From Halalkalicoccus sp. CGA53 (GTDB lineage Archaea > Halobacteriota > Halobacteria > Halobacteriales > Halalkalicoccaceae), in contig NZ_CP144125.1 of assembly GCF_036429475.1 (NCBI RefSeq), positions 868,001 through 932,000 on the forward strand: DNA of 64,000 bases, in the 5' to 3' direction. A model generated the notes under the pieces. The model ran no database searches. It was not told the DNA's origin and saw only the letters and a list, made by a program, of their open reading frames with translations. Within the stretch, counting starts at the first letter, position 1, and every line of letters begins with the position of its first letter. Positions 4,398 through 19,232 of the stretch are shown piece after piece. The position numbers were made by a program, and so were the translations under genes.

Positions 4398-4925
4398 ATG
4401 ACCGAGAGCAAGCCGATTCCCGACTGGGAGTTCAAAGAGCGTGACGTGATCATCTTGAAAGAGCTGACCAGAGATCCACAGCTCTCCTCGCGCGACCTCC
4501 GGGAGATACTCGCCGAGGAACACGGGATCGAGGTCTCACACGTCACGATCAGCGAGTCGATACGAAAGATGCGCCGTGACGGCGTCTTCCGCGAGGCGAT
4601 CATCCCGAACGAGGAGTACCTGCTCTTCTCGCTGTTCGAGTTCCAGTTCGACCCCGAACACTTCGCCGAGTCCTGGCGTGTCGCGATGGAGGAGATCCGG
4701 GCGGACGAACACACGTTCATGTACTTCCTCTCGGACGGCGAGTACCAGTGGAAGACGATCATGATGTTCGAGAACCGAGAGCAGGAGTCGCGGTGGATTC
4801 ACGAGTTCTACAAGGAACACGGCCGGCTCGTGAACAACCTCCGGAACTCCGTCGTCACGAACGTGCTCAAGTTCGGCACCGACCCGGAACTGTTCGACAG
4901 CCTCAACCTCGTTCGAGATCGGTGA
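4398..4925 (+). CDS. winged-helix transcriptional regulator (Lrp-like N-terminus)
   Basis: 175 residues. Residues about 10-60 form a winged helix-turn-helix (ERDVIILKELTRDPQLSSRDLREILAEEHGIEVSHVTISESIRKMRRDGVF) of the Lrp/AsnC type. The remainder (FSLFEFQFDPEHFAESWRVAMEEI, then YQWKTIMMFENREQESRWIHEFYKEHG) does not look like the usual RAM ligand domain. It lies at the left edge of the metabolic island, convergent with the acyl-CoA dehydrogenase gene. It could regulate that gene or the APH-type kinase, but no operator evidence ties it to them. Confidence 0.7.
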   Translation: MTESKPIPDWEFKERDVIILKELTRDPQLSSRDLREILAEEHGIEVSHVTISESIRKMRRDGVFREAIIPNEEYLLFSLFEFQFDPEHFAESWRVAMEEIRADEHTFMYFLSDGEYQWKTIMMFENREQESRWIHEFYKEHGRLVNNLRNSVVTNVLKFGTDPELFDSLNLVRDR

Positions 4926-4931
4926 TCCTCG

Positions 4932-4978
4932 CCGACTCGGCTCGCCGTCGCAACCGATTCACCGACTCGGCTCGCCGT
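4932..4978. repeat. short direct repeat at the 3' end of the acyl-CoA dehydrogenase gene
   Basis: CCGACTCGGCTCGCCGT occurs twice, 30 bp apart (4932-4948 and 4962-4978). The second copy encodes the last codons of the dehydrogenase. This looks like a small local duplication that may have replaced the original C-terminus. Confidence 0.7.
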
Positions 4979-6182
4979 ACCGAACGAGTCCGTCGAGCTC
5001 GCTCGTCTCCACCTCGGAGAACGCCTCGCGGGCGATCGAGCGCTTGTGGACCTCGTCGGCACCGTCGATGATCCGGAACTGCCTGACCGACTCGTAGAAG
5101 TCTCCCAGCGGTAGATCCCGCGAGATCCCCGCACCGCCACAGAGCTGGACGGCGGTGTCGATCGCATCCTGTACGGCCTCGGCCGCGTAGGACTTGCACA
5201 TCGCCACCTCGATCCGTGCCTCGCTCCCGTCCTCTATCTCTCGGGCGGCGTGGCGCACCATCGTCCGGACCGCGTGCAATCGTGTCTCGGCCTCGGCGAC
5301 CGCGAACCGCGCGGACTGCTTCTCCGAGAGCGGCTCGCCGAACGCCTCGCGCTCGCTCGCATACGCCTTCGCCACCTCGAGGGCGCGTTCGGCCATCCCC
5401 GAGTAGCGCATGCAGTGGGTGAGCCGAGCGGGCCCGAGTCTGCGCTGGACCTGCCCGAAGCCGTCGTGGAGCTCGCCCAGAACGTTCTCCTCGGGCACCC
5501 TCACCTCACTGTACTGTATCTCTGCGTGACTCGTCCCGAGTAGCGTCTCCCCGACGTGGGGGATGTCGCGAACGATCTCCACCCCGTCGGCGTCTGCCGG
5601 GACGAGGAACGTCGAGCAGCCCTCGTAGGGGTGGGCCTCGTGGTCCGTTCGCGCGAAGACGATCAGCACGTCGGCCTCGCTGCCCTGCGTCGTCCACCAC
5701 TTGTGGCCGTCGATGACCCACTCGTCGCCCTCCACTCTGGCCTCGGTCCGCAACATCTTCGGGTCGGACCCGCCGCCTTGCATCGGTTCGGTCATCGAGA
5801 ACGCCGACCTGATCTCGGCCTTCGCGAGCGGACGGAGCCACCGCTCTCTCTGCTCCTCGGTTCCGACGAGTTCGAGGAGGTGCATGTTCCCCTCGTCGGG
5901 AGCGTCGACCCGGAGGGCGGCCTGTGCGAGGAGACTCCGGCCCGCCTGTTCGAACGTCGGCAACAGATCGCGAAACCCGAAGCCGAGCCCACCGTACTCC
6001 TCGGGGAGCTGTGGCCCGTAGATCCCACGCTCGCGTGCCTCCTCCCTGAGGTCGGCGATCACGCTCTCCTCGACCGGCCCGTTCCCGAGCCACTCGCGCT
6101 CGACCGGGAGGACGACCTCGTCGACGAACGTCCGGATCTCCGCCGCGAGCTCGCCCGCCCGCTCGGAATCGTGGTACTCCAT
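4959..6182 (-). CDS. acyl-CoA dehydrogenase family protein
   Basis: 407 residues, usual length for the flavoprotein family. It shows LPEEYGGLGFGFRDL near residue 60, the substrate/FAD region FSMTEPMQGGGSDPKMLRTEA and WVIDGHKWWTTQGSEADVLIVFART, and a C-terminal helical domain ending GGAGISRDLPLGDFYESVRQFRIIDGADEVHKR. It would oxidise an acyl-CoA at the alpha-beta bond in the cytoplasm. The overall style, with an APH-type kinase gene divergently transcribed 142 bp away, recalls the ACAD10/ACAD11 type, where these two domains cooperate on 4-hydroxyacyl-CoA. That link is inference. Confidence 0.88.
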   Translation of the reverse strand: MEYHDSERAGELAAEIRTFVDEVVLPVEREWLGNGPVEESVIADLREEARERGIYGPQLPEEYGGLGFGFRDLLPTFEQAGRSLLAQAALRVDAPDEGNMHLLELVGTEEQRERWLRPLAKAEIRSAFSMTEPMQGGGSDPKMLRTEARVEGDEWVIDGHKWWTTQGSEADVLIVFARTDHEAHPYEGCSTFLVPADADGVEIVRDIPHVGETLLGTSHAEIQYSEVRVPEENVLGELHDGFGQVQRRLGPARLTHCMRYSGMAERALEVAKAYASEREAFGEPLSEKQSARFAVAEAETRLHAVRTMVRHAAREIEDGSEARIEVAMCKSYAAEAVQDAIDTAVQLCGGAGISRDLPLGDFYESVRQFRIIDGADEVHKRSIAREAFSEVETSELDGLVRYGEPSR

Positions 6183-6278
6183 GTGCTACCCACCGACAAC
6201 GATGGTAAAAGCGTATCCCCGATTCCCGTTCAGCGGGCACCGAACCCGTACGCTTTCGTACCCGCACTCCGATGTGCT

Positions 6279-6289
6279 TAACAATGTTA
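6279..6289. promoter_or_regulatory. palindrome in the acyl-CoA dehydrogenase / kinase divergent promoter
   Basis: TAACAATGTTA is a perfect inverted repeat (TAACA/TGTTA) centred 41 bp upstream of the kinase start, in the region shared with the divergent dehydrogenase gene. It is a candidate operator for an unidentified regulator, possibly the winged-helix protein at 4398. Confidence 0.35.
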
Positions 6290-6324
6290 GGGATCTACCC
6301 GGCGGATCGAAGGGTGACCGCCCC

Positions 6325-7383
6325 GTGAGCGACCGGTCGTACCTCGACCGGCTGGTCGACGGGGAGGCGCTTCGGTCGTATCTGGAGTCCGAACTCGGAG
6401 GTGTCGAACGGTTCGCGTTCGAGCGCCACCCCGAGGGCCACTCGAACGAGACGCTCTTTCTCACCTGGGGTGAGCGAGAGCTCGTGCTCAGACGACCACC
6501 GCCGGGCGAGACCGCCGACACCGCCCACGACGTCCTCCGGGAGTACCGCGTGATGGACGCGCTCCAGGACACCGACGTCCCGCTCCCCGGGACGGTCCTC
6601 GCCTGCGAGGACGAGTCCGTGATCGGCGGCGACTTCTACCTGATGGAGCGACTCGCAGGCGACGTGATCCGCGGCGAGGAGCCCGAGCGGTTCGCCGTTC
6701 CCGCCCACCGCGACCGGATCGGTACGGAACTCGTCGAGACGCTCGCGGCGATTCACTCCGTCGACGTAGAGGCAGTCGGCCTGGCCGAGTTCGGCCGTCC
6801 GGAGGGGTTCACCGAGCGCCAGGTCGAACGCTGGGGGAAACAGATCGACTGGGCCGCGGGAACGACGGCCGAGGAGCGCGAGGTCCCGGAACTCGACCGG
6901 GTCGGCGAGTGGCTCGAGGCGAACGTCCCCGGGGAGTATCCGCACACGCTCGTCCACGGCGACTACAAGCTCGACAACGTGCTCTTCGGTCCCGGAACGC
7001 CGCCGGAGATCGCGGGCGTGATGGACTGGGAGCTCTCGGCGCTCGGCGACCCCTTTACCGACCTCGGCTGGACGCTCTCGTTCTGGCACGATCCGGCGGA
7101 CCCGCCGCCGGCGATCCCGGAGCTCTACCCGACGTTCATGACCCGGGAGGGCTACCCGACGAGGGACGACCTCGTCGAGCGGTACGAGGCGGCCACGGGC
7201 TACTCGTTCGACCACGACCGGTTCTACCGGTCGCTCGCGGTCTACAAGATGGCCGGCCTCGGCGAGATGTTCTTCGCCAGGTACCTGAACGGGGACAGCG
7301 ACGACCCGCTCTACCCGGGGATGGAGACGCAGGTCCCGAAACTCGCCGGACGCGCGATCGAGATCATCGAGGGCGAGGACTGA
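6325..7383 (+). CDS. APH-family phosphotransferase (ACAD10/11 N-domain or LvaA-like)
   Basis: 352 residues from a GTG at 6325; the frame is open further upstream but the extra residues do not resemble the family. Kinase-fold motifs: catalytic loop HGDYKLDN at 211-218 and metal-binding GVMDWELSALGDPFTDLGW (Asp234). Proteins of this subgroup include the kinase half of ACAD10/11 and the bacterial LvaA, which phosphorylate the hydroxyl of 4-hydroxyacyl-CoA esters, so an aminoglycoside or choline substrate is less likely. The divergent acyl-CoA dehydrogenase supports that assignment. Start uncertain; function by analogy. Confidence 0.75.
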   Translation: MSDRSYLDRLVDGEALRSYLESELGGVERFAFERHPEGHSNETLFLTWGERELVLRRPPPGETADTAHDVLREYRVMDALQDTDVPLPGTVLACEDESVIGGDFYLMERLAGDVIRGEEPERFAVPAHRDRIGTELVETLAAIHSVDVEAVGLAEFGRPEGFTERQVERWGKQIDWAAGTTAEEREVPELDRVGEWLEANVPGEYPHTLVHGDYKLDNVLFGPGTPPEIAGVMDWELSALGDPFTDLGWTLSFWHDPADPPPAIPELYPTFMTREGYPTRDDLVERYEAATGYSFDHDRFYRSLAVYKMAGLGEMFFARYLNGDSDDPLYPGMETQVPKLAGRAIEIIEGED

Positions 7384-7629: not shown

Positions 7630-9294
7630 ATGGTCGAGGGCACGTTGGATACCGCGAAGGTCGTATCGCTACTGACCGGAGTCGTCCTCTTCTTCGCGCT
7701 CATGCTGTACGTCGGCTACCGGACCGAGAAATGGATTGACTCTACATCGGATTTCATCGTCTCCGGTAGGGAGATCAACTACCTGGTGATCGGAGCGGGT
7801 TTCGCGGCGATCGGGTTGGCTGGATCGCAGGTCTCCTCGTTGCCGGAGTTCGCCATCACTCTCGGGCTCCTTCCAGCCTCGCTCTACATGCTCACGTGGT
7901 GTGTTTTTCTGGTGATTTTCGGGTGGAAGATCGCACCGTACATCAGGAGAAGCGGGGTCTATACCACCTCGGAGTGGATGGAACAACGATTCGATCGGCG
8001 GACGCGGATCGTGGCAGCAATCGGGAGCGCGCTCGGCATCATCGGTGTCGTCGCGGCGCAGTTCGTTGGCCTCGGTCTCGTAGTGGCCGAACTGACCGAT
8101 TTCTCGTACTTATACGCGTCGTTCGGAATTCTCGTGATCACGCTCGTCTACATGTATCTCGGCGGGCTCTGGGCGGTGACGGTCAACGACGTCATCCAGA
8201 TCGTCATCGGGAGCGTCGCGATGATCGTCATCGCGACCTGGCTGTTCGTCTATTTCGGCTCACCGACCTGGCTCGCCCAGAACGCTCCCGAGATGGCCAG
8301 TCTCTCCGGAACCGGGGCGATGGAGCCCGTTGCCCTGACGTTCAATAGCCCGGTGACCTGGTTCATCGGATGGGGCGCGTTGATCATCGGCAACCAGTAC
8401 TACTGGATTCGGCTGGTGAGCGCCCGCAGCGAGGAGGCCGCGAAGAAGGGAACGATGCTCGGTGGAGTCCTGACGGCGATCTTCTTCTCGTTACTCCTCG
8501 CACTCCCAGGGGCGTACGCGGTCGCAGCGTACGGTGCTCCGGCGGACGCCGGCTACCACTCCGGAGGCGTGTTCGGAGTGATGTTGCTCGAAATGCCACC
8601 GCTGATGGACGCCTTCGTCCTCGTAGCGCTCATTTCGGCCCTGATGAGCACGGCCTCGACTGCGATCATCGGCATCGTTTCGATTCTCATTCGTGACGTG
8701 TGGGAGCCACTGGTCGGTCGGGCGACGACCTCGGACGAACTCATGGGTCCGACGCGTCTCTTTACGGTGCTGATCGGTGTCGCCGCGTGGGTCTGGGCGA
8801 TCACGTGGCAGGAGACGGCGGCACTCATGCTCGCACTCGGCTGGTCCTTCATCGCTCCGCTGGTGTCGGTCGTCCTGATCGGCCTCGCATGGCCACGACT
8901 GACCGCTTCTGGGGCCTTCTACGGGATCTCTACCGGAATCGTCGCCGTCCTGCTCTGGCAGTACGGACCGTGGGGACTCGGTGCGTACGCGCACGAGACG
9001 TGGATCGGGATATTCGTCCCCGCGATCGTCGCCCTCGTGGTGTCTCTGGTCACCGAGCCACCGTACTACGGCACAGCTGACTGGCAGGAGAGAGCGACGG
9101 CGGACACGCGAACGCCACGTGACGAACAACCACAGCCCGACCTGCAGGAACTCGCGCTCGAGCTTTCGAAACCGTGGACGCCGAGTGCTCGCTGGAACCG
9201 GTTCGTCGTGGACCGTGGGAGCGAGGGGGGTCTCCTTCCGACACTGCTTCGCTACGACTCCCGGGCCGCTTCGAGGGGTGAGCGCGATGAGTGA
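7630..9294 (+). CDS. sodium:solute symporter family protein
   Basis: 554 residues with about 13 hydrophobic segments from residue 10 to about 480, then a hydrophilic tail of about 75 residues. SSS-family signs: YxxxEWMEQRFDRRTR-type loop after the third segment, the GGLWAVTVNDVIQ stretch, and the signature region SALMSTASTAIIGIVSILIRDVW. It should import an organic solute with sodium. It carries operator 1 upstream and overlaps the next HTH gene by 8 bp, so it belongs to the island's catabolic regulon. The coding sequence is less GC-rich in places than its neighbours. The substrate is unknown; membership in the cluster suggests the compound processed by the amidohydrolase/LigM-like enzymes. 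Confidence 0.88.
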   Translation: MVEGTLDTAKVVSLLTGVVLFFALMLYVGYRTEKWIDSTSDFIVSGREINYLVIGAGFAAIGLAGSQVSSLPEFAITLGLLPASLYMLTWCVFLVIFGWKIAPYIRRSGVYTTSEWMEQRFDRRTRIVAAIGSALGIIGVVAAQFVGLGLVVAELTDFSYLYASFGILVITLVYMYLGGLWAVTVNDVIQIVIGSVAMIVIATWLFVYFGSPTWLAQNAPEMASLSGTGAMEPVALTFNSPVTWFIGWGALIIGNQYYWIRLVSARSEEAAKKGTMLGGVLTAIFFSLLLALPGAYAVAAYGAPADAGYHSGGVFGVMLLEMPPLMDAFVLVALISALMSTASTAIIGIVSILIRDVWEPLVGRATTSDELMGPTRLFTVLIGVAAWVWAITWQETAALMLALGWSFIAPLVSVVLIGLAWPRLTASGAFYGISTGIVAVLLWQYGPWGLGAYAHETWIGIFVPAIVALVVSLVTEPPYYGTADWQERATADTRTPRDEQPQPDLQELALELSKPWTPSARWNRFVVDRGSEGGLLPTLLRYDSRAASRGERDE

Positions 9295-9847
9295 ACCGTC
9301 CATCACACCGGACCTCGACGGAATCAGCGACAGGTTCGAACTCGAAGAGGGTGAGACGCTCGAAGAGAAGTACGAAGAGCTACTCACGTTCGTCCAGAGC
9401 GGTCGCAACCAGATGGACGAGTTAGCCGACGGTCTCGGGCTGAGCGGTGTGGAGACCGAGTACCTGATCCGGGAAGCGGAGAAGACCGGCGACGTGACCC
9501 GGGAGGGCTACACCGGCAAGAAGCTCTACACGATATGGATCACCGATCAGGGTGGGGAGAAGCTCCCGGAGATCTCCGAGACCGGTGCAACGCTAGCCGA
9601 GCACAACTTGACGGAACTGGACTACGAGGTGTTGAAAGTCGTCACTCACGTCGGCCCGTGCACGATCCAACCCGTTCTCGAGGAGCTCTCGACCGATCTC
9701 GCTCCGATCAAATTGATTCCGGTTCTGAACCATCTGGTACGGGAAGGTTACTGCGAGAGCTCGGGCCTGTGGCGACGGTACGTCGAGACCACGAGCGAAG
9801 GGAGGACCCTGGTCGAGACACTCGATCAGGAGATCCTCGTCGAGTGA
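9287..9847 (+). CDS. winged-helix protein co-translated with the symporter
   Basis: 186 residues; ATG at 9287 overlaps the symporter stop (9292-9294), so translation is probably coupled. The sequence has two HTH-like units: residues about 30-75 (LLTFVQSGRNQMDELADGLGLSGVETEYLIREAEKTGDV, then a wing with GKKLYTIWITDQG) and about 115-170 (LDYEVLKVVTHVGPCTIQPVLEELSTDL, ending in a second wing-like part). No ligand domain is evident. It could be a dedicated regulator of the transporter or of the cluster; I do not recognise a named family. Confidence 0.65.
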   Translation: MSEPSITPDLDGISDRFELEEGETLEEKYEELLTFVQSGRNQMDELADGLGLSGVETEYLIREAEKTGDVTREGYTGKKLYTIWITDQGGEKLPEISETGATLAEHNLTELDYEVLKVVTHVGPCTIQPVLEELSTDLAPIKLIPVLNHLVREGYCESSGLWRRYVETTSEGRTLVETLDQEILVE

Positions 9848-9914
9848 GGACGGCCGATCCCTTCGACCCCGGTAGCACCCGTCTTCACGACGCAGATACA
9901 GCGAACTAGAACGG

Positions 9915-10310
9915 CTACTCGGGTCCCTTTCCTGCCTCGCGGAGGAGGACGAGTGCCGCGCCGAGTAACGCGACGTTCTTACAGAAGTTTACCTTGTTCG
10001 CCTGGCGTTCAGTCCCCTCCATCGTCCAGAAGTCGTGGATCGCGGGCGTCGTGCCGATGAAGAAGACTATCACCGCTCCCGCCGACGCGCGAGGAAACCG
10101 CCAGAGGAGGAGCCCCAAGTTGGCAACGAGTAACATCCCCGTCGTGAACGGCACTGCTATCCCGGCGAGCGGAACGCCCTTCTCGCGGGCGATCTCGACC
10201 CGTTTCTCGTTGTTCCGAAAGCCGTCGAGCGCCATGTAGGCGAGCGTCCCGCTGTAGAGCAGCCGTCCGAGTGTCGAGGGCGGGTCGGCCGTGCGGTTCG
10301 AGTCGGCCAC
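9915..10310 (-). CDS. DoxX-family membrane protein
   Basis: 131 residues with four hydrophobic segments (SGTLAYMALDGF; GIAVPFTTGMLLVANLGLLLW; ASAGAVIVFFIGTTPAIHDFW; NVALLGAALVLLREA), the four-helix arrangement of DoxX/DoxD. The family is linked to quinone-dependent or redox processes, but its role here is not known. It starts 4 bp after the BNR-protein stop, so the two form an operon reading leftward from operator 2. Confidence 0.75.
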   Translation of the reverse strand: MADSNRTADPPSTLGRLLYSGTLAYMALDGFRNNEKRVEIAREKGVPLAGIAVPFTTGMLLVANLGLLLWRFPRASAGAVIVFFIGTTPAIHDFWTMEGTERQANKVNFCKNVALLGAALVLLREAGKGPE

Positions 10311-10314
10311 GGGA

Positions 10315-11358
10315 TCAGAGCACCTCGATCCGGCTGACGTTCGCGCCCACGCGGCCGACCGTCCGGTACTCGCCGTCTTCGCGGCGCATGATCCTCCCCT
10401 CGACGTCGTCGCGCTGGTCGGGGACGTCGAAGAGCCCGGAGCCGCAGACCACCGCGCCGTCGTAGACTGCCCAGGTCTCGACGATCTCGTGGGGTTCGCC
10501 GGGGAATGGGACGCGCTCGAAGTCCCGGCCGAAGTTCGTCGACTCGAACAGCGCCGCCTCGTGTTCGTCGTTCACCCAGGCGGGCGGGGCCTCCTGGCCG
10601 CCACAGAAGAAGACCGTGCCGTCGTGGACGAACACGCACCTGATGTACGAGAACTCGTTGCCGGTGTCGATCCGGGTCCACGACTCCCCGGCGTTCGTCG
10701 TCCGCCAGAGCCCGCCTTCGCCGACGGCGTGGCCCAGCCCGAGGTTCTCGAGTTCGTGGTCGAGGTAGCCCGTCGTCGCGAGCCAGACCTCGGCGGAGAT
10801 CGGGAGCACCTGGTGGACGTCGTCGACGATCGTGTCCCGTCGGTCGATCCAGGTCCGGCCGGCGTCCTCGCTGAGGTGGATCCCGCCGGCCTCGACGCCG
10901 GCGATCAGCCGCTCCGGGCGGCCGGGGACCGCCTCGAGAGCGCGGAGTCGGGCGTAGTGTGGGTCGATCGGGGACTCCCAGTGGCCACGCGAGGGGAGGT
11001 CTCGAAAGCCCTTCAGTTCGCTCCAGGTCTCGCCGTCGTCGACCGAGCGATAGATGTAGGGATCGTTCGTCCCAGCGTAGAGCGCGCCGTCGGCGGTCGC
11101 GAGGACCGACCAGACCTCGCTCTCGCCGGCGTGCCAGTACCGGTCCCCGAGCGGCACACCGAGGTCCTCCCACGTCTCCCCGTCGTCACGGGATCGGTAG
11201 GCACCGGTCGTGGAGGCGACGAACACCCCGTCGGCGTGTTCGAAATCTCTGACGGCCGTCACGACGCCGCAGTCGAGTACCCGTTTCGGATCGTCCCGTT
11301 CGAACGGTACCTCCTCCACCCGGTACAGCCCCGCGTCCGTCCCGATCAACAGCGTCAT
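10315..11358 (-). CDS. BNR/YCF48-type beta-propeller protein
   Basis: 347 residues from the ATG at 11358. It contains at least five BNR-type blades with the signature S-x-D-x-G-x-T-W: SRDDGETWEDL, SVDDGETWSEL, SEDAGRTWIDR, TTNAGESWTRI and STNFGRDFERV. No signal peptide, so it is probably cytosolic. Such propellers bind or isomerise small molecules or proteins; this is not a true sialidase, and no catalytic residues can be assigned. It is transcribed away from the TatD gene with operator 2 between them, which places it in the catabolic regulon. It could be a lactonase-like or substrate-sensing protein. Confidence 0.72.
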   Translation of the reverse strand: MTLLIGTDAGLYRVEEVPFERDDPKRVLDCGVVTAVRDFEHADGVFVASTTGAYRSRDDGETWEDLGVPLGDRYWHAGESEVWSVLATADGALYAGTNDPYIYRSVDDGETWSELKGFRDLPSRGHWESPIDPHYARLRALEAVPGRPERLIAGVEAGGIHLSEDAGRTWIDRRDTIVDDVHQVLPISAEVWLATTGYLDHELENLGLGHAVGEGGLWRTTNAGESWTRIDTGNEFSYIRCVFVHDGTVFFCGGQEAPPAWVNDEHEAALFESTNFGRDFERVPFPGEPHEIVETWAVYDGAVVCGSGLFDVPDQRDDVEGRIMRREDGEYRTVGRVGANVSRIEVL

Positions 11359-11389
11359 GTGGTCCGTGAGAGCGCGGCCCACTAAAGTT

Positions 11390-11403
11390 TTACCAAACTG
11401 TAA
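11390..11403. promoter_or_regulatory. candidate TetR operator 2 (BNR / TatD divergent promoter)
   Basis: TTACCAAACTGTAA, extended to TTTTAC-N6-GTAAAA (11388-11405). One arm differs by one base from operators 1 and 3. It is 32-45 bp upstream of the BNR gene start, adjoining its TATA region, and 73-86 bp upstream of the TatD gene start. Confidence 0.55.
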
Positions 11404-11475
11404 AACGCTAAGTGTCGGGCCACACAATCCCGGACATCGACCGGATCCGGCCAGTCCGGCCCGGAGAGATCACTC

Positions 11476-12477
11476 ATGCCAACGGACAACCCGACCAGAC
11501 GGCCGACCGATGCGGCGTACCTCGAGGAGACTCGGAGACCGCCGACCGACCTGCTTACCCTGCCCTGGATCGACGTCCACAACCACGCACACACGCTCTC
11601 GTGGGACGATCGCGAGCGGTACGCACTGGCCGGCTGTGCGGCGATGGTGATGGTCGCCTCCGGCTACCACTGGACGCCGTACAAGCCAGCGAGAGCCGAG
11701 GACGTCCGCTTCCTCTGGGACGACGCGGTGAACCGACGGGCGGCGATCGAGCGCGAGCACTTCTTCGAGGCGAGACTCGGCCTCGGGGTACACACGGGCG
11801 TCCGGATCGAGAACCCGGAGGAGCTGCTGGAGGCGATGGCCGGCTACTGCGAACTGGAGGAGGTCGTGGCGATCGGCGAGACCGGCGTCACCCCGTCCCA
11901 GCACATAAGCGCGTGGGACGTAGCGGAACAGCGGGCGGTCGTCGAGGCACAGATGGAACTCGCCGACACCTACGACCTGCCCGTGATCCTGCACACGCCG
12001 AACCAGTCGAGCGAGTCGAAACGGTCCTACAGGCCGGGGGTGGGAGTCCCCGGATACGAGAAGAACACCGCACTGGGCGCGGAGCCGGTGCTCGACGGGG
12101 AGAACCCGGCGCTCGAAGCGGTGAAGATCGACGTCGAGGCGGCCAACGATGCGGGACTCGCGGAGGAGCGGATCGTCGCCTCCCACGCGGATCGGAACAA
12201 CACCCCCTACCTGATGGAAGAGACCGACTGCTACCTGAGCTACACGATCGGCCACTCGTGGCTGATCGGCGTCGACGCCGGAGACGTCGCCGATGCCATC
12301 GAGGAGTACGGCCCCGAGCGGATCACGGTCGACACGGACTGTGCGAACGTCCTCCGGACCGACCCGTTCGCGCTGAAACGGGCGATCTTCGAACTGTACC
12401 GTCTCGGGATCGACGAGGCGGCGATCCGGCAGGTCGTCTGGGAGAACCCCCGTGACCTCTACGGGTTCGGCGAGTAG
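11476..12477 (+). CDS. TatD-family metal-dependent hydrolase
   Basis: 333 residues, an amidohydrolase-fold TIM barrel. Metal ligands visible: the HNHAH motif near residue 34, Glu in VAIGETGV near residue 135, His in VILHTPN near 174, His in VASHAD near 237, and Asp in TVDTDCAN near 290. TatD proteins are Mg/Zn phosphodiesterases or hydrolases; the long insertion between the second and third ligands and its place in the cluster suggest hydrolysis of a small molecule rather than DNA. It ends 1 bp before the stop of the convergent LigM-like gene. Confidence 0.8.
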   Translation: MPTDNPTRRPTDAAYLEETRRPPTDLLTLPWIDVHNHAHTLSWDDRERYALAGCAAMVMVASGYHWTPYKPARAEDVRFLWDDAVNRRAAIEREHFFEARLGLGVHTGVRIENPEELLEAMAGYCELEEVVAIGETGVTPSQHISAWDVAEQRAVVEAQMELADTYDLPVILHTPNQSSESKRSYRPGVGVPGYEKNTALGAEPVLDGENPALEAVKIDVEAANDAGLAEERIVASHADRNNTPYLMEETDCYLSYTIGHSWLIGVDAGDVADAIEEYGPERITVDTDCANVLRTDPFALKRAIFELYRLGIDEAAIRQVVWENPRDLYGFGE

Positions 12478-12478
12478 G

Positions 12479-13807
12479 CTACTCCGCGAGGTTCGCCCGC
12501 CGCCGGTCCTCCTTGTACGGGGTGCGTGCGACCGTCGCCCGGACCTCCTTCTGGACGTGGTCCTCGACGGTCGGACTCGCGGGGTTCTCACCCTCGCCCC
12601 AGACGACGGTCACCTCGGTGCCGACGTCGCTGTGCTCGACGTCGATGGTGCACAGCGAGAGCATCGTCCGGAAGTAGTAGCTGTAGCCGCGCATCGTCGC
12701 CACGCCGACGTCTTCGCCGTCGACGAGCACCCGGTCGGCGATCATCGACCGCTTCTGCTGGTGGGGCATCTCCATGAACTTGTACGTGTCACCGGGCTGG
12801 AACAGGGAGGCGTACACGTCGATGACGTCCTCGTCGTTCCACTCCAGCGTGGCCAGCACCCGATCCGGGTCCGCCCCCTCGGCTTCGAGCGCCTCACGGC
12901 CGACGAAGTCGTGGTCGAACTTCGTGTACCGATCCCAGCCCAGTTCGACCGGCGTCCGGTAGTAGTCGCTGATGTCGTCGCCCTCGAAGCTCCCCTCCAC
13001 GGCGTGTGTGATGAGGTCACGGCTCTGGTGCTCGCGGAGGAACGCGCGGTAGTCGGCCATGCCGTCCCCGAAGATGGCGGAGACGAAGTCCCGGACCCGC
13101 GACGGGATGCCGGCTTCGAGTTGGTTGATAGACGAGGTGCCCGAACTCAGCCGCTGTATGCCGTACGGCTCGCCCGCCTCGAGGATGGCGTCCCACACCG
13201 TCTCGCCGTGCTCGCCCGGCCCGTGGAGTTCGAACCCGACCTCGCCGGACATCCCGAATCGGACGGCGGTCACGTCGACGCCGGCGATCTCGATGGGGCC
13301 CGAGCGCATGAACCCCACCTCGCGCAGCGAGTGGTTCGCGAGCGCGTCCAGCACGTCGAGCGACGTCGGTCCCTGCACCCCGAAGTTGAACGTGTCCCGG
13401 AACTCGGCGGTGGCGTCGTAGTCGCCCCGTTCGAGGTTGAACGCGGTCCAGTAACACGGCACACCGTGGAGGACGAACTCCTCGTCGCCCTCGCGGACGA
13501 GGACGCCCTCGGCGACGACGTTGGCGTCCTCGTCACACTGGACGAGGTGTTTCCCGCCGCCGACGGGGTAGTCCGCGAACGAGTTGATGCTCAGGTCGGC
13601 CAAGAGGTCGATGGCGTCCGGCCCTTCGAGTTTGAGATTCGCGAACGTCGACCAGCTCCCGACGTAGCAGGTCTCCTTCCACGAGAGCTGTTCGTCGATC
13701 CAGTTCGTGTACTGGCTGGGACGGCGTGCGCTGAAGTCCTCTCGCCGGTTCACCCGACGCATCGTCTCGAGGACGCCCTCCGGTCCGAACTCCGAGTCAG
13801 AGTCCAT
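12479..13807 (-). CDS. GcvT-fold tetrahydrofolate-dependent demethylase (LigM/DesA-like)
   Basis: 442 residues, longer than glycine-cleavage GcvT (about 370) and close to LigM (about 470). The C-terminal half shows the series DISDYYRTPVELGWDR, KFDHDFVGREALE, LEWNDEDVIDVYASLF, GYSYYFRTMLSLCTID and GTEVTVVWGE, which I recognise from bacterial vanillate and syringate O-demethylases. These move a methyl group from an aryl ether to tetrahydrofolate. A Tyr described as the proton donor in LigM (in AIYTG) appears here as Phe (AIFGDG) by my alignment from memory, so the substrate or chemistry may differ. DmdA-like or sarcosine/dimethylglycine-type demethylation is the alternative. It reads in the same direction as the FAH and amidohydrolase genes, 134 bp downstream. 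Confidence 0.8.
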   Translation of the reverse strand: MDSDSEFGPEGVLETMRRVNRREDFSARRPSQYTNWIDEQLSWKETCYVGSWSTFANLKLEGPDAIDLLADLSINSFADYPVGGGKHLVQCDEDANVVAEGVLVREGDEEFVLHGVPCYWTAFNLERGDYDATAEFRDTFNFGVQGPTSLDVLDALANHSLREVGFMRSGPIEIAGVDVTAVRFGMSGEVGFELHGPGEHGETVWDAILEAGEPYGIQRLSSGTSSINQLEAGIPSRVRDFVSAIFGDGMADYRAFLREHQSRDLITHAVEGSFEGDDISDYYRTPVELGWDRYTKFDHDFVGREALEAEGADPDRVLATLEWNDEDVIDVYASLFQPGDTYKFMEMPHQQKRSMIADRVLVDGEDVGVATMRGYSYYFRTMLSLCTIDVEHSDVGTEVTVVWGEGENPASPTVEDHVQKEVRATVARTPYKEDRRRANLAE

Positions 13808-13941
13808 GGGGGGTCGACAGGGGATAGCCGCATCAATCTTTTCCCGAACCCGGACATCTCTGACCCTCTAACTCCCGATTTCGTGACTCAGCGGTCGCCA
13901 GCCCTCCCGGCCGGCGGCCGGGCCAGCCGGGACGACGGGGC

Positions 13942-14826
13942 TCAGTCGAACGCACAGTCGTTCGACAGTTCGCCCAGTCCCTCCACGCCGACGGTGACGG
14001 TGTCTCCCTCGCCCAGTAGGACCGGCGGCTCGCGGTAGACGCCCACCCCCGGCGGCGTTCCCGTGAAAAGCAGGTCCCCCGGGGAGAGGGTGAAGGCCTG
14101 GCTACAGAACGAGACCAGCTCCGCGATCCCGAATATGAGGTTCGCGGTCGTCGACTCCTGGAGCCGCTCGCCGTTCACCTCGGCCCAGATGTCGAGGTCC
14201 TCCGGATCGCCGACCTCGTCCGCCGTCACGATCTCGGGGCCGATCGGCGCGAACGTGTCGAGGCTCTTCCCGCGGACCCATTGGCCGTCGCCGTGCTGGA
14301 GGTCGCGCGCGGAGACGTCGTTACCGACCGTGTAGCCGGCGACGTACCCGAGCGCCTCCTCCTCGCTCACCCGTCGCGCCTCCTTTCCGATCACGGCGAC
14401 GAGTTCCGCCTCGTAGTCGACTCTCTCCGTGAACTCGGGGTCCCACTCGATCGCGGTGTCGGGACCGATCACCGCCGTCGGGAACTTCGAGAACAGCACC
14501 GGGGAATCGGGGATCGGGTTGCCGCCCTCCTCGGCGTGGTCGCGGTAGTTGAGCCCGACACAGACCACCTTCTCCGGGTTCGAGACCGGCGCGAGTCGCT
14601 TCAGATCGTCGAGCGAGTGCAGCCCAGTTCCGGTCTCCTCGGCGTACTCGACGGCCATCTCGGCCTTGCGCCGCCACTCCCAGCCGCCGAACAGCTCGGC
14701 GGTATCGTCCGGAATCGCGAGTCCGGCCGCAGCGCCGGCCTCCGGGAGACGGACAACGGTCTCCCCGATCCGTACCCCACACCAGGGCTCCTCGCTCCCC
14801 CGCTCGGTGTAGCGTCCGATCCGCAT
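13942..14826 (-). CDS. fumarylacetoacetate hydrolase family protein
   Basis: 294 residues with the FAH C-terminal fold: VCVGLNYRDHAEEGG, the metal ligands EWDPEFTERVDYEAELVAVIGKEARRV, GYTVGNDVSARDLQ, and the end LLFTGTPPGVGV. The family includes acylpyruvases, ring-cleavage-product hydrolases and oxaloacetate decarboxylases. It starts 1 bp after the amidohydrolase stop, so the two are one operon. Expected to be a cytosolic Mg-dependent enzyme that cleaves or decarboxylates a keto-acid intermediate of the pathway. Confidence 0.9.
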   Translation of the reverse strand: MRIGRYTERGSEEPWCGVRIGETVVRLPEAGAAAGLAIPDDTAELFGGWEWRRKAEMAVEYAEETGTGLHSLDDLKRLAPVSNPEKVVCVGLNYRDHAEEGGNPIPDSPVLFSKFPTAVIGPDTAIEWDPEFTERVDYEAELVAVIGKEARRVSEEEALGYVAGYTVGNDVSARDLQHGDGQWVRGKSLDTFAPIGPEIVTADEVGDPEDLDIWAEVNGERLQESTTANLIFGIAELVSFCSQAFTLSPGDLLFTGTPPGVGVYREPPVLLGEGDTVTVGVEGLGELSNDCAFD

Positions 14827-14827
14827 G

Positions 14828-16183
14828 CTACAGCTCCAGTCCGGCCTCGTCGACCAGCCTCCGGCCCGAGGCGACGAACCGATCGAACTCCTCGTCGACT
14901 TTCGAGTTCACGAGTTCTCCGTCGCGCTTGACCGGCTCGCCGTCGACCAGCACCCACTCGATGTGCGAGGGATCGGACTGGAAGACGACGGTCTGGATCG
15001 GCGAGTGACTCGGTGCGGTGGTGAAGTCGTCCGCTCGGACCAGGACGATATCCGCTCGCTTGCCGGGCGTGAGCGTGCCGATCTCCTCGTCCATCCCCAG
15101 CGCCCGTGCCCCCTCGATCGTCGCCATCTCGAGGGTGTCCCGGCAGGTGAGCCCCACCTCGGTGACCTCCTCGCCGTCCTCCAGGATCGCCTGGTTCTCG
15201 AACATCCGCTGGACCTGCAGACCGATGCGCATCTGGGTGACCATGTCGCCGTTGACGTCCGAGGGGACGTCGACCCCCCACGTCGGTCGCCCGCCGGCAT
15301 CGAGCACCTTCCCCGTCACCGGGATCCCGTGACCCATCTGCATCTCGACCTCCGGCGTCGCGGAGAAGGAGACGCCCTCGCCGACGGCGTGGTCGATGTC
15401 ATCCTGCGAGAAGTGGTTCGCGTGGGCGACGTTGACGTCCGGGCCGAGCATGTCGGTGATCGCTCCGAAGCCCTGGTAATCGTCGCCGTAGACCGACGAG
15501 GGCCAGCACGCGGCGCCCATGTGGATCGTCGAAACGACGTCGAGGTCGCGGGCCAGTTCCAGATCGCTGCGGGCGGTCTCGTCCGTACAGAAATCCGGCC
15601 CCCGGAGCCCGAGTGCGAGGCTGAGCAGGTCGTCGTCGCGGATCTTCTCGGTGTAGAGCTCGCGGATCTGCCGCTCGGGGAGGCCGACGTCGCTGTCGAA
15701 CCACCACTTCGCCGCGTCGTCCCCCGGCGGCCCGTAGGTGTACACCGCGCGCAGTCCGGTATCCTGAAGCGCGTCGACGGCCCGTTCGCCGTGTTCGAGT
15801 GTGTTGGGGTACGACCAGTCTAGGGCCGTGGTCGTCCCCGTGTAGAGCTTCTCGAGCGCGCCGAAGAGGCCGCCCAGGTACATGTCTTCGGGCTCGTATA
15901 GGCCGGTGATGTTGCCGAGCATGTGATCGAAGTACTCTCCCATGAGCGACCAGTCCCCGGCGATACCCCGTACCTGGGTCTGTGCGAGGTGGATGTGCGA
16001 GTCGACGAACCCCGGCAGGACGATACGGCCCTCGGCGTCGATCACCTCGGCGTTGTCGGTCGAGAGGCCGTGGCCTATCTCGACGATCTCGCCGTCGTCG
16101 ATCAGGACGTCGGCCCCCTCCAGGTCGCCGATCTCCGGGTCGAGCGTGACGACCGTCCCGTTGCGTACGATCCGTCGTGTCAT
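14828..16183 (-). CDS. amidohydrolase, cytosine/guanine deaminase-like or triazine hydrolase-like
   Basis: 451 residues from the ATG at 16183. The metallo-dependent hydrolase motifs are in order: PGFVDSHIHLAQTQ (HxH, near residue 60), TIHMGAACW, VAHANHF and VDVPSDVNGD. The N-terminal (GTVVTLDPEIGDLEGADVLIDDGEIVEIG) and C-terminal (GTLTPGKRADIVLVRADD) beta-sandwich strands are intact. It would hydrolyse a ring amine, amide or halide. The subgroup with GVDVPSD and GLQVQRM is one I cannot assign to a substrate. Operator 3 lies 35-48 bp upstream, and FAH follows in the same operon. Confidence 0.88.
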   Translation of the reverse strand: MTRRIVRNGTVVTLDPEIGDLEGADVLIDDGEIVEIGHGLSTDNAEVIDAEGRIVLPGFVDSHIHLAQTQVRGIAGDWSLMGEYFDHMLGNITGLYEPEDMYLGGLFGALEKLYTGTTTALDWSYPNTLEHGERAVDALQDTGLRAVYTYGPPGDDAAKWWFDSDVGLPERQIRELYTEKIRDDDLLSLALGLRGPDFCTDETARSDLELARDLDVVSTIHMGAACWPSSVYGDDYQGFGAITDMLGPDVNVAHANHFSQDDIDHAVGEGVSFSATPEVEMQMGHGIPVTGKVLDAGGRPTWGVDVPSDVNGDMVTQMRIGLQVQRMFENQAILEDGEEVTEVGLTCRDTLEMATIEGARALGMDEEIGTLTPGKRADIVLVRADDFTTAPSHSPIQTVVFQSDPSHIEWVLVDGEPVKRDGELVNSKVDEEFDRFVASGRRLVDEAGLEL

Positions 16184-16207
16184 GTCCACCCAGACCTTCG
16201 ACCAGTA

Positions 16208-16231
16208 GGTAAAAAGCTTACCGAACGGTAA
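16208..16231. promoter_or_regulatory. candidate TetR operator 3 (amidohydrolase / tetR divergent promoter)
   Basis: TTACCGAACGGTAA at 16218-16231 is a perfect 14-bp inverted repeat (apart from the centre). Another half-site GGTAA stands at 16208-16212, giving three alternating half-sites about 10 bp apart. The tetR TATA element (GCGATATAC, about 16253-16261) is 20 bp to the right; the amidohydrolase TATA region is immediately to the left. This fits autoregulation. Confidence 0.6.
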
Positions 16232-16283
16232 AACAGCCGTGACGACGGACAAGCGATATACGTGACACCCGCCGAGTACGCCC

Positions 16284-16898
16284 ATGAGCGATTCCGGCGG
16301 GAGGGTCTCCGCGAAGGACACCCGCGAGCTGATCATGGAGGCGACGTTCCGTGCGATCGGCGAGCACGGCTACGCCGACCTCCGGATGCGCGATATCGGC
16401 GAGGAGATGGAGCTGACCAGACAGGTGATCCACTACTACTTCGACGGGAAGTACGACCTCATCTCCTCGTTTCTCGAGTACGTGATCGACCAGTACGAGG
16501 GGAGCGTCGAGGTCGACGAGCACGCCGACCCGCGGGCCGAACTCGACGCGCGGATCGACCAGTGTCTGTTCGGGCCGGAGTTCGGCGAGTTCACCCACTG
16601 GGATCGCATGAAGGTCTACCACGAACTGTTCGCGCACGCACAGAACGACGACCGACACCGCGAGATCTTCAACGACCACTACGACCGGATCCGCGGGAGC
16701 ATCGTCGAGGTCGTCGAGAGAGGTATCGAGGAGGGGGTGTTCCGCCCCGTCGACGCGGAGCTCATGGGCCAGCTCGTCACGGACGTGATCCACGCCGCTC
16801 GCGGCCGGCGGATCGCGCTCGGCCACGAGGACGCCCCGGAGGAGGCCCGAAGGGCGATCGACGAGTTCGTCCTCGACTCGCTGGACGTCGACGAGTAG
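16284..16898 (+). CDS. TetR/AcrR family transcriptional regulator
   Basis: 204 residues, standard length. The N-terminal HTH is clear: TRELIMEATFRAIGEHGYADLRMRDIGEEMELTRQVIHYYFDGKYDLISSFLEYVIDQYE (about residues 12-70). The C-terminal helical ligand domain resembles the TetR_C_6 (BetI) type. It lies next to the amidohydrolase, divergent from it, with operator 3 between. It is the most likely reader of all three TTACC-N4-GGTAA sites. It converges on the SDR gene. TetR proteins are usually repressors released by pathway substrate. Confidence 0.93.
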   Translation: MSDSGGRVSAKDTRELIMEATFRAIGEHGYADLRMRDIGEEMELTRQVIHYYFDGKYDLISSFLEYVIDQYEGSVEVDEHADPRAELDARIDQCLFGPEFGEFTHWDRMKVYHELFAHAQNDDRHREIFNDHYDRIRGSIVEVVERGIEEGVFRPVDAELMGQLVTDVIHAARGRRIALGHEDAPEEARRAIDEFVLDSLDVDE

Positions 16899-16973
16899 CG
16901 GTCGGCGTCGGTCGGCGACCGCGATCCGGTAGCAATCCGGCGCTCGCCCAACAGTCGATCGGCGACCACCCTC

Positions 16974-17750
16974 TTACTGCGCCGTCCAGCCGCCGTCGAC
17001 CGCGAGCACGCTCCCGGTGACGAAGCTCGCCGCATCGCTCGCGAGGAAGACCACGGGTCCGGCGATCTCCTCTGGATCGGCGATCCGCTCTAAGGGTGTG
17101 CGAGCGAGGATCGACTCCCTGAGCGCCTCGTTCTCCTCGACACCCTCGGTGAGCGACGTCGAGACGTAGCCCGGTGCGACGGCGTTCACGCGCACCTCGG
17201 GCGCCCAGTCGATCGCCATGCTCTTCGTCAGCCCAACCAGCCCGTGTTTCGAGGCGACGTAGGGGTGCTGTCGGGGAAGGCCAACCAGTCCGCCGACGCT
17301 CGCGACGTTCACGACCGATCCGCCACGCTCGTGGAGGTGGTCCGCGGCCGCCGTCGCACACCGAAAGGCCCCCCGCAGGTTCACGTCGAGCACGAGGTCG
17401 TAGCCCTCCTCCTCGACCCGTTCGGGTCGTCCCAGCGCGGTATCGGGGTTCGCCCCGGCGTTGTTCACGACGCAGTCGACCCCGCCGAACTCCTCGACAG
17501 TGCGCTCGAACAGCGCGTCGATCTCGTCTCGGTCCCGGAGGTCGGTCGTCACCGCGAGCGAGCGGCCGCCGCGATCGCGGACCTCCTCGGCCACCGCCGC
17601 GACCTCCTCTCCGCTCCTCGCTGTCGGGACGACCGTCGCACCCGCGTCGGCCAGCCCCAGCGCGATCGCCCGGCCGATGCCGCGGCCGCCGCCGGTGACG
17701 ACCGCGACGCGCTCCGTGAGGTCGAAGCGCTCCGTCAGGCGCTCGGCCAC
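16974..17750 (-). CDS. short-chain dehydrogenase/reductase
   Basis: 258 residues, classical SDR: NAD(P)-binding TGGGRGIG at 19-26, VVNNAGA near 95, and the active-site Ser (VASVGG) with YVASK (about residue 163). The GTG start at 17750 is 1 bp after the livF stop, making it the last gene of the importer operon. FabG-type oxidoreductases act on hydroxyl/keto groups; co-transcription with an importer suggests it works on the imported compound or its first intermediates. Confidence 0.93.
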   Translation of the reverse strand: MAERLTERFDLTERVAVVTGGGRGIGRAIALGLADAGATVVPTARSGEEVAAVAEEVRDRGGRSLAVTTDLRDRDEIDALFERTVEEFGGVDCVVNNAGANPDTALGRPERVEEEGYDLVLDVNLRGAFRCATAAADHLHERGGSVVNVASVGGLVGLPRQHPYVASKHGLVGLTKSMAIDWAPEVRVNAVAPGYVSTSLTEGVEENEALRESILARTPLERIADPEEIAGPVVFLASDAASFVTGSVLAVDGGWTAQ

Positions 17751-17751
17751 G

Positions 17752-18468
17752 TCAGCGCACCTCTTCCGGGGCGACCGCGAGGTACTGTTCGAGCAGGTCG
17801 TCGCGGTCCTGTAGCTCGTCGATCGTCCCCTCGAAGACGATCGAGCCCGTGTCGATCACGTAGCTCCGGGTGGCGAGTGCGAACGCGAAGGTGACGTTCT
17901 GCTCCGACAGGAGGACGGTCACGTCCTGTGAGACGACGTCGCGGAGCATCTCGCGGAGGTCGTCGACGATCACCGGCGCGAGCCCCTCGGTCGGCTCGTC
18001 GAGCAGCAGTAGCGAGGGACGCTGGACGAGCGCGCGTGCGACAGAGAGCATCTGCTGTTCGCCGCCGCTCAGGTTCCGGCCCCTGTTCCGCCGCAGGTCG
18101 TCGAGGATCGGGAACAGCTCGTACATCTCCTCGACCGGCCGGGGATCGTCGGCGAGCTTGTGCGCGAGCGTGAGGTTCTCCTGGACCGTCAGCGTGGGGA
18201 AGACGCGCCTGTCCTCGGGGACGAGGTCGATCCCGAGGCGGTTGATCTCGTTCGGCGAGCGTCCCACGAGGTCGGTCCCCCGGTAGCTGATTCGACCTCG
18301 GCGGGGCGGGGTCGTCCCCATGATCGAGCGCATCGTCGTCGTCTTGCCAGCCCCGTTGCGACCGAGCAGCGCTACGACCTCTCCCTCCTCCAGTTCGAGC
18401 GAGACGTCGTGGAGCACGTGGCTGTTGCCGTAGTACGTGTCGATCCCGTCGACCTCGAGCACCGTCAT
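17752..18468 (-). CDS. livF: branched-chain-type ABC transporter ATP-binding protein LivF
   Basis: 238 residues. Walker A GRNGAGKTT near residue 36, signature LSGGEQQML near 134, and Walker B LLLDEPTEGLAP near 153. The sequence LGIDLVPEDRRVFPTLTV is characteristic of LivF. It starts within the livG stop (4-bp overlap ATGA-type). It energises the HM permease together with LivG. Confidence 0.94.
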   Translation of the reverse strand: MTVLEVDGIDTYYGNSHVLHDVSLELEEGEVVALLGRNGAGKTTTMRSIMGTTPPRRGRISYRGTDLVGRSPNEINRLGIDLVPEDRRVFPTLTVQENLTLAHKLADDPRPVEEMYELFPILDDLRRNRGRNLSGGEQQMLSVARALVQRPSLLLLDEPTEGLAPVIVDDLREMLRDVVSQDVTVLLSEQNVTFAFALATRSYVIDTGSIVFEGTIDELQDRDDLLEQYLAVAPEEVR

Positions 18469-19232
18469 ACGGCCTCACTCCCCAGGTAGGCCTCGGTGAC
18501 GCGCTCGTCGGTCAGTACCTCCCCTGGCGTCCCGTCGGCGAGCACCGCGCCCTCCGCGAGGACGACGATACGATCCGAGACGTCCCGAACGACGTCCATG
18601 TTGTGCTCGGTGACGACGAACGTCGCCGCGAGGTCGTCGTCGAGCTGCTGGACCAGCGAGACGATCTCGCGGGCCTCCGTCGCGTTCATCCCGGCGGTCG
18701 GCTCGTCGAGGAGGAAGACCGTCGGCTCGATCGCCAGCGCGAGCGCGATCTCGACGCTGCGCTTCTCGCCGTGGCTGAGCGCGTCACAGGGCCGGTCGGC
18801 CATATCGGCCAGCCCGAGCAGGTCGAGCAGGCGGTCGACCTCCTCGTTGATCGCCCCGTCGCTCGCCGCACGCGAGCGCAGGTCCATCGTCCTGCCGTCG
18901 TGGCTGATCCGGGCGACCTGCAGGTTCTCCCGGATCGTGAGCCCCTCGAAGACGTTCGTGATCTGGTAGGACCGGGAGAGCCCGCGTCTGGCGACCTCGT
19001 GCGGCGGCGCGTCGGTGATGTCGACGAGGTCGCCACCCTCCCTGAGGTGGATCGTCCCCGCCGTCGGTTCGAGGACTCCCGTGAGGAGGTTGTAGAACGT
19101 CGTCTTCCCGGCCCCATTCGGTCCGATGATGCTCGTGACGCCCTCGTCCTCGATCGAGAGGGTGACGTCGTCGACGGCGGTCAGTTCGCCGAAACGCTTG
19201 GTGAGGCCGTCGGTTTCGAGGACGGCCGTCAC
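18465..19232 (-). CDS. livG: branched-chain-type ABC transporter ATP-binding protein LivG
   Basis: 255 residues with a GTG start overlapping the livM stop by 4 bp. Walker A GPNGAGKTTFYNLLTG, the LivG-type SRSYQITNVFEGLTIRENL, signature LSHGEKRSVEIALAL, and Walker B VFLLDEPTAGMN are all present. It is the second ATPase of the importer. Confidence 0.94.
   Translation of the reverse strand: MTAVLETDGLTKRFGELTAVDDVTLSIEDEGVTSIIGPNGAGKTTFYNLLTGVLEPTAGTIHLREGGDLVDITDAPPHEVARRGLSRSYQITNVFEGLTIRENLQVARISHDGRTMDLRSRAASDGAINEEVDRLLDLLGLADMADRPCDALSHGEKRSVEIALALAIEPTVFLLDEPTAGMNATEAREIVSLVQQLDDDLAATFVVTEHNMDVVRDVSDRIVVLAEGAVLADGTPGEVLTDERVTEAYLGSEAV

Follow-up and report, generated by a model that had tools for sequence, protein, structure and literature searches.

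We describe a divergent gene pair in the haloarchaeon Halalkalicoccus sp. CGA53 that probably forms a two-step module admitting 4-hydroxy acids to beta-oxidation, a reading to which we give a probability of roughly 0.8. The pair lies in a 64,000-nucleotide stretch of contig NZ_CP144125.1 (positions 868,001–932,000, forward strand; hereafter the window, to which coordinates refer) of a 4.04-Mb genome. It consists of an acyl-CoA dehydrogenase (ACAD; 4959..6182, minus strand, ATG start, 407 aa) and an APH-fold kinase of the ACAD10/11-LvaA kind, proposed to be a 4-hydroxyacyl-CoA 4-kinase (6325..7383, plus strand, GTG start, 352 aa). The original prediction had named these two genes, the kinase motifs HGDYKLDN and MDWE and a shared promoter region of 142 bp; both reading frames are intact at the predicted coordinates, both motifs are present and the gap between the genes is 6183..6324. 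Its assignment to an ACAD10/11-type pair is upheld by the dehydrogenase residues, by a tree group shared with mouse ACAD11, by the kinase profile and by the co-occurrence of both genes.

In mammals and bacteria, a 4-hydroxyacyl-CoA is phosphorylated and then converted to a 2-enoyl-CoA in an FAD-dependent step (PMC11342911, PMC12440821), and the archaeal pair has the predicted parts for both steps. The mammalian enzymes were explained only in 2024–2025 (PMC12440821, PMC11342911). By term counts the word archaea is absent from the main text of both papers, and among the entries listed by a literature search covering open-licence papers there was no archaeal work on this pathway. An archaeal version would carry the chemistry into a further domain of life, and both genes are present in 108 of the 195 genomes sampled from the order. 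If the reading is true, it provides a testable function for two gene families annotated only generically, as well as a genetic explanation for the reported growth on levulinic acid (PMC12455835) of Haloferax mediterranei, an organism used for bioplastic production.

Active-site residues and phylogeny of the dehydrogenase

The ACAD was assigned by Pfam to PF02771/PF02770/PF00441. In mouse ACAD11, the ACAD step suffered most when R626, H634 or R637 was replaced by Ala or Leu, and Asp753 is the base (PMC12440821; the printed chain numbering of the mouse protein is one lower than the residue numbers of the paper). In the alignment, the window ACAD has R248, H256, C257, M258, R259 and Asp373 at the mouse active-site positions. 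The Arg/His/Arg of the active-site helix is present (R248, H256 and R259, equal to R626, H634 and R637), and the codons of R248...R253..H256-C-M-R259, with R253 matching R631, span 5406..5441 on the minus strand. Asp373, the proposed catalytic base (codon 5064..5066, minus strand), is aligned with D753, where ordinary ACADs have Glu. The protein thus differs from an ordinary ACAD, which has a Glu base and no Arg/His/Arg set.

Of the 128 distinct archaeal orthologues (56% identity or more to the window ACAD), 125 carry the full set, RRHCMRD; each of the other three deviates at a single position, which in one case is a gap. Among 14 bacterial homologues at 38–56% identity, 11 carry the full set and three carry HVMR. 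Below 38% identity (n=35) the set is present in three sequences, which are bacterial ACAD11-like proteins by tree position, and missing from 32 ordinary ACADs. The 12 other ACAD loci in the window's genome all lack it (a thirteenth further match is a fragment).

By sequence, the solved structures nearest to the window ACAD are 4hr3 (Mycobacterium abscessus) and ACAD11. They are also the best matches when a profile built from 29 sequences is searched against the PDB, with ACAD11 at 4.7e-114 and the next ACAD at 5.8e-81. The predicted model has a predicted local distance difference test (pLDDT) value of 92.6, and ranks 1–4 of its fold search are 4hr3 and ACAD11.

In a maximum-likelihood tree of 79 rows, the archaeal, bacterial and mouse proteins with the HCMR motif form one group of 46 rows (100/100; root for drawing only), and 33 ordinary ACADs stand apart from it. 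A grouping with general short-chain enzymes, which the original prediction had named as an outcome that would speak against it, was thus not seen. The 27 archaeal rows are a single clade (100/100) and do not fall within the ACAD11-like subclade, which holds mouse ACAD11 and bacterial homologues 54–58% identical to it. The archaeal ACAD is therefore best placed in the wider HCMR-ACAD family (ACAD10/11-LvaC kind), outside the ACAD11/LvaC-like subclade proper. The word 'split' is better not taken to mean a broken animal fusion: the archaeal clade lies outside that subclade, and separate genes are also seen in ten bacterial plasmid loci.

The closest named relative of the ACAD among the matches listed is from a Halococcaceae metagenome-assembled genome (95% identical), and the orthologue of Halalkalicoccus paucihalophilus has 70% identity. 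The best 80 named ACAD loci in the genome collection, counted by eye, comprise 73 from haloarchaea and seven from bacteria at 42–50% identity. The nearest bacterial relative among the matches listed is the ACAD of Anaerolineae bacterium Prado087 (L202), 50% identical and with the full RRHCMRD set, a possible pointer to a donor lineage. Two further loci, L108 (G055) and L110 (G188), carry tandem duplicated HCMR-ACAD genes, 57–58% identical to that of the window and without a linked kinase; they adjoin a thiolase, plus a short-chain dehydrogenase/reductase (SDR) or an acyl-CoA ligase.

Kinase family and motifs

The kinase was assigned by Pfam to PF01636 (APH, 168 bits), and the APH-fold motifs HGDxxLDN and DWE are present in the sequence, with the fold borne out by the model and the fold search. 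The codons of HGDYKLDN (residues 211–218; catalytic Asp213, equal to mouse D220) lie at 6955..6978 and those of DWE, the metal-binding motif of the APH fold (residues 234–236; MDWE is 233–236), at 7024..7032, both on the plus strand. The residues D213, N218 and R165 are present, R165 matching mouse R176, one of two Arg residues (R86 and R176) that hold CoA in the mouse model. R72, E73, R165, Q166 and Asp213 are kept in all 90 orthologues with residues shown (92 distinct). A longer open reading frame begins at 6181; this is not a likely start of the kinase, since alignments with orthologues from other genomes start at kinase residues 1–10.

Searched as a profile against the PDB, the kinase matched 9o56 (6e-85), the ACAD11 kinase domain (7.2e-71) and 3dxp (4e-68), followed by the 25-hydroxysteroid kinase 9fsg (2.8e-28) and 3ats (7e-23); the best known drug kinase reached 8e-7. 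The top fold match of the kinase model (pLDDT 92.2) is 3dxp, ranks 2, 4 and 5 are 25-hydroxysteroid kinase (9fsg, 9ft5), and the others include 3ats, then drug and sugar kinases. Together the profile and fold matches place the kinase in a superfamily whose members phosphorylate hydroxyl groups on CoA esters and on steroids, ACAD11 being a near relative by sequence.

The fold ranks of the 25-hydroxysteroid kinase also mean that members of this superfamily act on other hydroxyls as well, and the genes neighbouring the pair vary widely among genomes. The pair could thus apply the same chemistry to another CoA ester, for example one with a branched, cyclic or terpenoid side chain, and not to simple 4-hydroxy fatty acids. 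We regard this as unlikely, given that the residues forming the 4-phosphate pocket in ACAD11 are conserved in the partner ACAD and that the profile brings the kinase far nearer to ACAD11 than to 9fsg.

An aminoglycoside kinase, the other outcome that would have counted against the original prediction, was not found either, as the profile is far from the known drug phosphotransferases; choline kinases were left out of the kinase tree, whose sole outgroup is one distant 25-hydroxysteroid kinase. Deep support in this tree is weak: 19 of 20 archaeal rows group at 82/92, and the remaining row branches off outside them at a fork that the tree does not resolve.

A second archaeal kinase family was recognised, with a match below 57% identity in at least 25 genomes (37–45% in the genome scan). 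Ten of its members (L212–L221: G112, G095, G056, G027, G094, G082, G035, G031, G099 and G101) are 35–39% identical to the window kinase across the compared length and branch as a clade of their own (100/100), and their genomes include some that have an HCMR-ACAD and some that lack it; the kinase of G166 (45%) branches outside this clade. No ACAD orthologue was found in the 13 genomes that hold only a second-family match, and in the ten neighbourhoods no gene family except the kinase itself occurs in three or more. The family was set aside on these grounds as having a different function.

Co-inheritance of the two genes

With kinase orthologues defined by at least 57% identity and ACAD matches listed at E 1e-100 or better, 108 of 195 genomes of the order hold both genes, one holds the kinase alone, none the ACAD alone and 86 neither. 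The kinase-only genome (G126) is 78% complete. Seven genera vary internally, and in these the kinase and the ACAD are always jointly present or absent (genus code known for 142 of the 195 genomes); this within-genus comparison is safer evidence than Fisher's test on the co-occurrence, which ignores relatedness. Five kinase rows, fragments or weak matches (G073, G104 twice, G193 and G098), were omitted; all four genomes were already counted as holding both genes, and the number of genomes given above for the second kinase family is a lower bound because of this omission. In G104, a second kinase copy is in fragments with an internal TAG (G104:C28:80564-81319), and the intact pair is on another contig.

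For 66 of the 119 kinase copies the ACAD lies divergently within 1.1 kb, and 15 have another arrangement within 10 kb. For the remaining 38, no ACAD lies that near on the contig, and their genomes, G126 excepted, hold the ACAD. Co-inheritance even without linkage argues for a shared function of the two proteins. At the level of the phylum, ACAD matches (E 1e-100 or better) were found in 22 of 294 genomes, all of the same order.

The two genes might also be unrelated neighbours, a small-molecule kinase (for aminoglycosides, choline or thiamine) beside an ordinary ACAD. Pfam is generic for both proteins, as is public annotation (phosphotransferase, aminoglycoside phosphotransferase, isovaleryl-CoA dehydrogenase, acyl-CoA dehydrogenase family protein). 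This explanation is already contradicted by the co-occurrence and the joint within-genus variation, by the residues and tree of the ACAD, and by kinase scores below the model cut-offs, 37.3 against 205 bits for the NCBIfam APH(3') model and 23.5 against 299 bits for thiamine kinase; we consider it very improbable. The pair is not a fusion, its kinase is by profile no aminoglycoside kinase, and its dehydrogenase is not an ordinary one.

Gene neighbourhood

Of 121 loci searched, 120 were anchored by the kinase or the ACAD (some genomes twice), and neighbours were counted within 4 kb. An SDR is present in 55 of the anchored loci, and in at least 28 of them it shares 60% identity or more with the SDR of H. 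mediterranei; the SDR family is large, with 16 matches in the window's own genome. An acyl-CoA ligase, 29–70% identical to the query, occurs in 23 loci, a fused 3-hydroxyacyl-CoA dehydrogenase/hydratase (HCDH) in 22 and a HAD hydrolase in 20. In a rough control, 10 neighbourhoods of the second kinase family analysed with another program and no distance limit, there were two weak SDRs (35–37%) and no HCDH, HAD, ligase or winged-helix protein.

The H. mediterranei stretch on pHME132 holds a ligase, another ACAD, a winged-helix protein, HCDH, the kinase (E6P09_RS18925), the HCMR-ACAD (E6P09_RS18920), HAD and an SDR, and its pair carries RLGPARLTHCMR and HGDYKLDN. We take strain DSM 1411 of this species to be the same strain as ATCC 33500.

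A further alternative is that the pair makes rather than degrades, isomerising 4-hydroxyacyl-CoA to 3-hydroxyacyl-CoA chiefly for polyhydroxyalkanoate (PHA) monomers. LvaC may form 3-hydroxyvaleryl-CoA (Rand et al. as described in PMC6692424), and H. mediterranei stores a 3-hydroxyvalerate copolymer (PMC6631277). With HCDH, thiolase and acyl-CoA ligase as neighbours, oxidation is the more likely direction, and no PHA gene was recognised among the named recurring neighbours by eye and in Pfam scans, which included no PHA model. We hold this alternative to be exceedingly improbable.

In the window itself, a winged-helix (wHTH) protein of 175 aa (4398..4925, plus strand) is a candidate regulator of the pair. 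Its Pfam HTH match is weak and under the cut-off; relatives, 62–98% identical, occur in 13 of the anchored loci, including pHME132. Directly downstream of the kinase, a sodium:solute symporter of the SSS type (7630–9294) was considered as an uptake system and not counted as part of the module, its relatives being found in none of the anchored loci. Farther on, 10315–21294 is a catabolic-looking island of TatD/amidohydrolases, a GcvT-like folate enzyme, a fumarylacetoacetate hydrolase, a TetR regulator and an SDR, with an apparent branched-chain ABC transporter (by eye).

Promoter element

The original prediction had also placed a palindrome in the shared promoter region. The sequence TAACAATGTTA is present at 6279..6289 (plus strand), and the palindrome is imperfect (TAAC-AAT-GTTA), with 4-base arms and a 3-base spacer. 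The pattern TAACN3GTTA is seen a single time in the window, where 0.08 occurrences would be expected (at least once in 7 of 100 shuffles), and 7 of the 63 distinct intergenic sequences contain it.

TAACAATGTTA is the kinase-side copy of a recurrent element, TTACAATGTTA. With at most one mismatch and on the strand of the gene, this element is found in 16 of 128 distinct ACAD upstream sequences at -50 to -11 (shuffles 0.10), most commonly at -28 of the start, and in 16 of 96 distinct kinase upstream sequences (shuffles 0.02); the shuffles are crude (two-base blocks) and the upstream sequences related. The ACAD-side copy of the window, which reads TTTTACCATCGTT (6198..6210, minus strand, 16–28 bases before the ACAD start codon), is degenerate and weak alone, and most upstream sequences have no clear copy.

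In the 4.04-Mb genome, the kinase-side site is the only exact match to TTAACAATGTTA; with at most one mismatch there are five matches, two of them both strands of one site (control 1), and TTTACAATGTTG gives one match (control 3). A genome-wide regulon could not be read from these counts. Across five genomes with unlinked pairs the pattern matches at 23 places (control 18), not clearly enriched overall, and six of the 23 lie no more than 160 bp from one of the two genes. An exact TTTACAATGTTG precedes the first tandem HCMR-ACAD copy of G188.

The wHTH protein perhaps binds the element. If the element overlaps the TATA position found for leaderless haloarchaeal messages, a repressor would be a fitting regulator.

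Proposed pathway

In the first step the kinase would use ATP to phosphorylate the 4-hydroxyl of a 4-hydroxyacyl-CoA, perhaps 4-hydroxyvaleryl-CoA. The FAD-bearing ACAD would then eliminate the phosphate to give a 2-enoyl-CoA with no net oxidation, Asp373 serving as base and R248, H256 and R259 holding the phosphate. An ordinary hydratase, dehydrogenase and thiolase would complete the degradation, and in relatives the nearby acyl-CoA ligase and SDR could yield the 4-hydroxyacyl-CoA from the free acid or a 4-keto acid. The shared promoter element, recurrent upstream of both genes in relatives, may be the site at which the neighbouring wHTH protein acts. Family assignment, residues, co-inheritance, neighbourhood and the recurrent DNA element are results of computation, whereas the reactions and the identity of the regulator are predictions. 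As the original prediction had cautioned, residues alone leave the substrate unproven, and its identity is still inferred.

With levulinic acid, H. mediterranei DSM 1411 reached growth rates of up to 0.097 per hour (PMC12455835), and feeding of gamma-butyrolactone puts 4-hydroxybutyrate into the polymer of this species (PMC6631277). Both observations suggest that 4-keto or 4-hydroxy acids reach its metabolism, their link to the pair being a correlation.

Several points weigh against a module for 4-hydroxy acids. The levulinate link concerns one species and is a correlation, and activity of the archaeal members is a prediction. The PDB chains closest to the kinase bear generic names only (9o56 is deposited as aminoglycoside phosphotransferase, 3dxp as putative acyl-CoA dehydrogenase), and we know of no proven substrate for either. 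R86 of the mouse kinase has no certain counterpart, R84 being the nearest arginine at an offset of one, and the ACAD11 kinase domain is not among the top 50 fold matches listed, which do include 25-hydroxysteroid kinase and 3ats. No acyl-CoA ligase or SDR adjoins the pair in the window; the SDR orthologue of its genome (75%) is 0.77 Mb away, and a close HCDH orthologue was not found in that genome (best 48%, unlinked). DUF6285, to which LvaB may belong to judge from Thermus gene order, was found in none of 40 related genomes and in 2 of 14 control genomes. Finally, five of ten bacterial plasmid loci have no annotated phosphotransferase within 4 kb of the HCMR-ACAD, in annotation that is incomplete.

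A fuller version, put forward only tentatively, is that haloarchaea have a regulated pathway of their own for 4-hydroxy and 4-keto acids, made up of the ligase, SDR, kinase, HCMR-ACAD and HCDH. The wHTH protein would act as its switch through TTACAATGTTA upstream of both genes, and HAD would clear stalled phospho-intermediates. This pathway would be the route of H. mediterranei levulinate growth and an archaeal lineage separate from ACAD10/11-LvaC.

Comparison with known systems

There is good support for the pair as a predicted archaeal line of this two-enzyme chemistry, which is already known; the gene order is its own, and some members share a promoter element. As in mammalian ACAD10 and ACAD11, a kinase and an HCMR-type ACAD would work as a functional unit, with the same phosphate-pocket residues and an Asp base, but the archaeal proteins are encoded by two separate divergent genes and not as a single polypeptide, and in the tree the archaeal ACAD does not belong to the ACAD11-like subclade. 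A HAD domain is part of ACAD10 (PMC11342911); a HAD gene is near the archaeal pair in the 20 loci counted above, whereas the scanned window neighbours include no HAD protein.

The levulinate operon of Pseudomonas was compared through ACAD11 and bacterial plasmid homologues, not through the P. putida LvaA and LvaC sequences themselves. LvaA and LvaC are likewise separate as kinase and HCMR-type ACAD, and the SDR and acyl-CoA ligase carried by archaeal relatives would match the roles of LvaD and LvaE (PMC6692424). The archaeal pair differs in being divergent with a shared promoter region, and no DUF6285 gene was found in the 40 related genomes.

Among the ten bacterial plasmid loci, a phosphotransferase lies directly beside the HCMR-ACAD in four (Thermus, Cupriavidus oxalaticus, Georgenia and Sphingopyxis), and in that of Deinococcus it belongs to the same gene row but is separated from the ACAD by two genes. 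On pTT27 of Thermus thermophilus (L080), 7956–11083 holds in a row an HCMR-ACAD, a distant kinase, a DUF6285 protein and a histidine phosphatase. This HCMR-ACAD is 46% identical to that of the window, has RRHCMRD and adjoins a phosphotransferase, as in the archaeal pair, whereas the Thermus genes are co-directional and their kinase is distant (28% identity).

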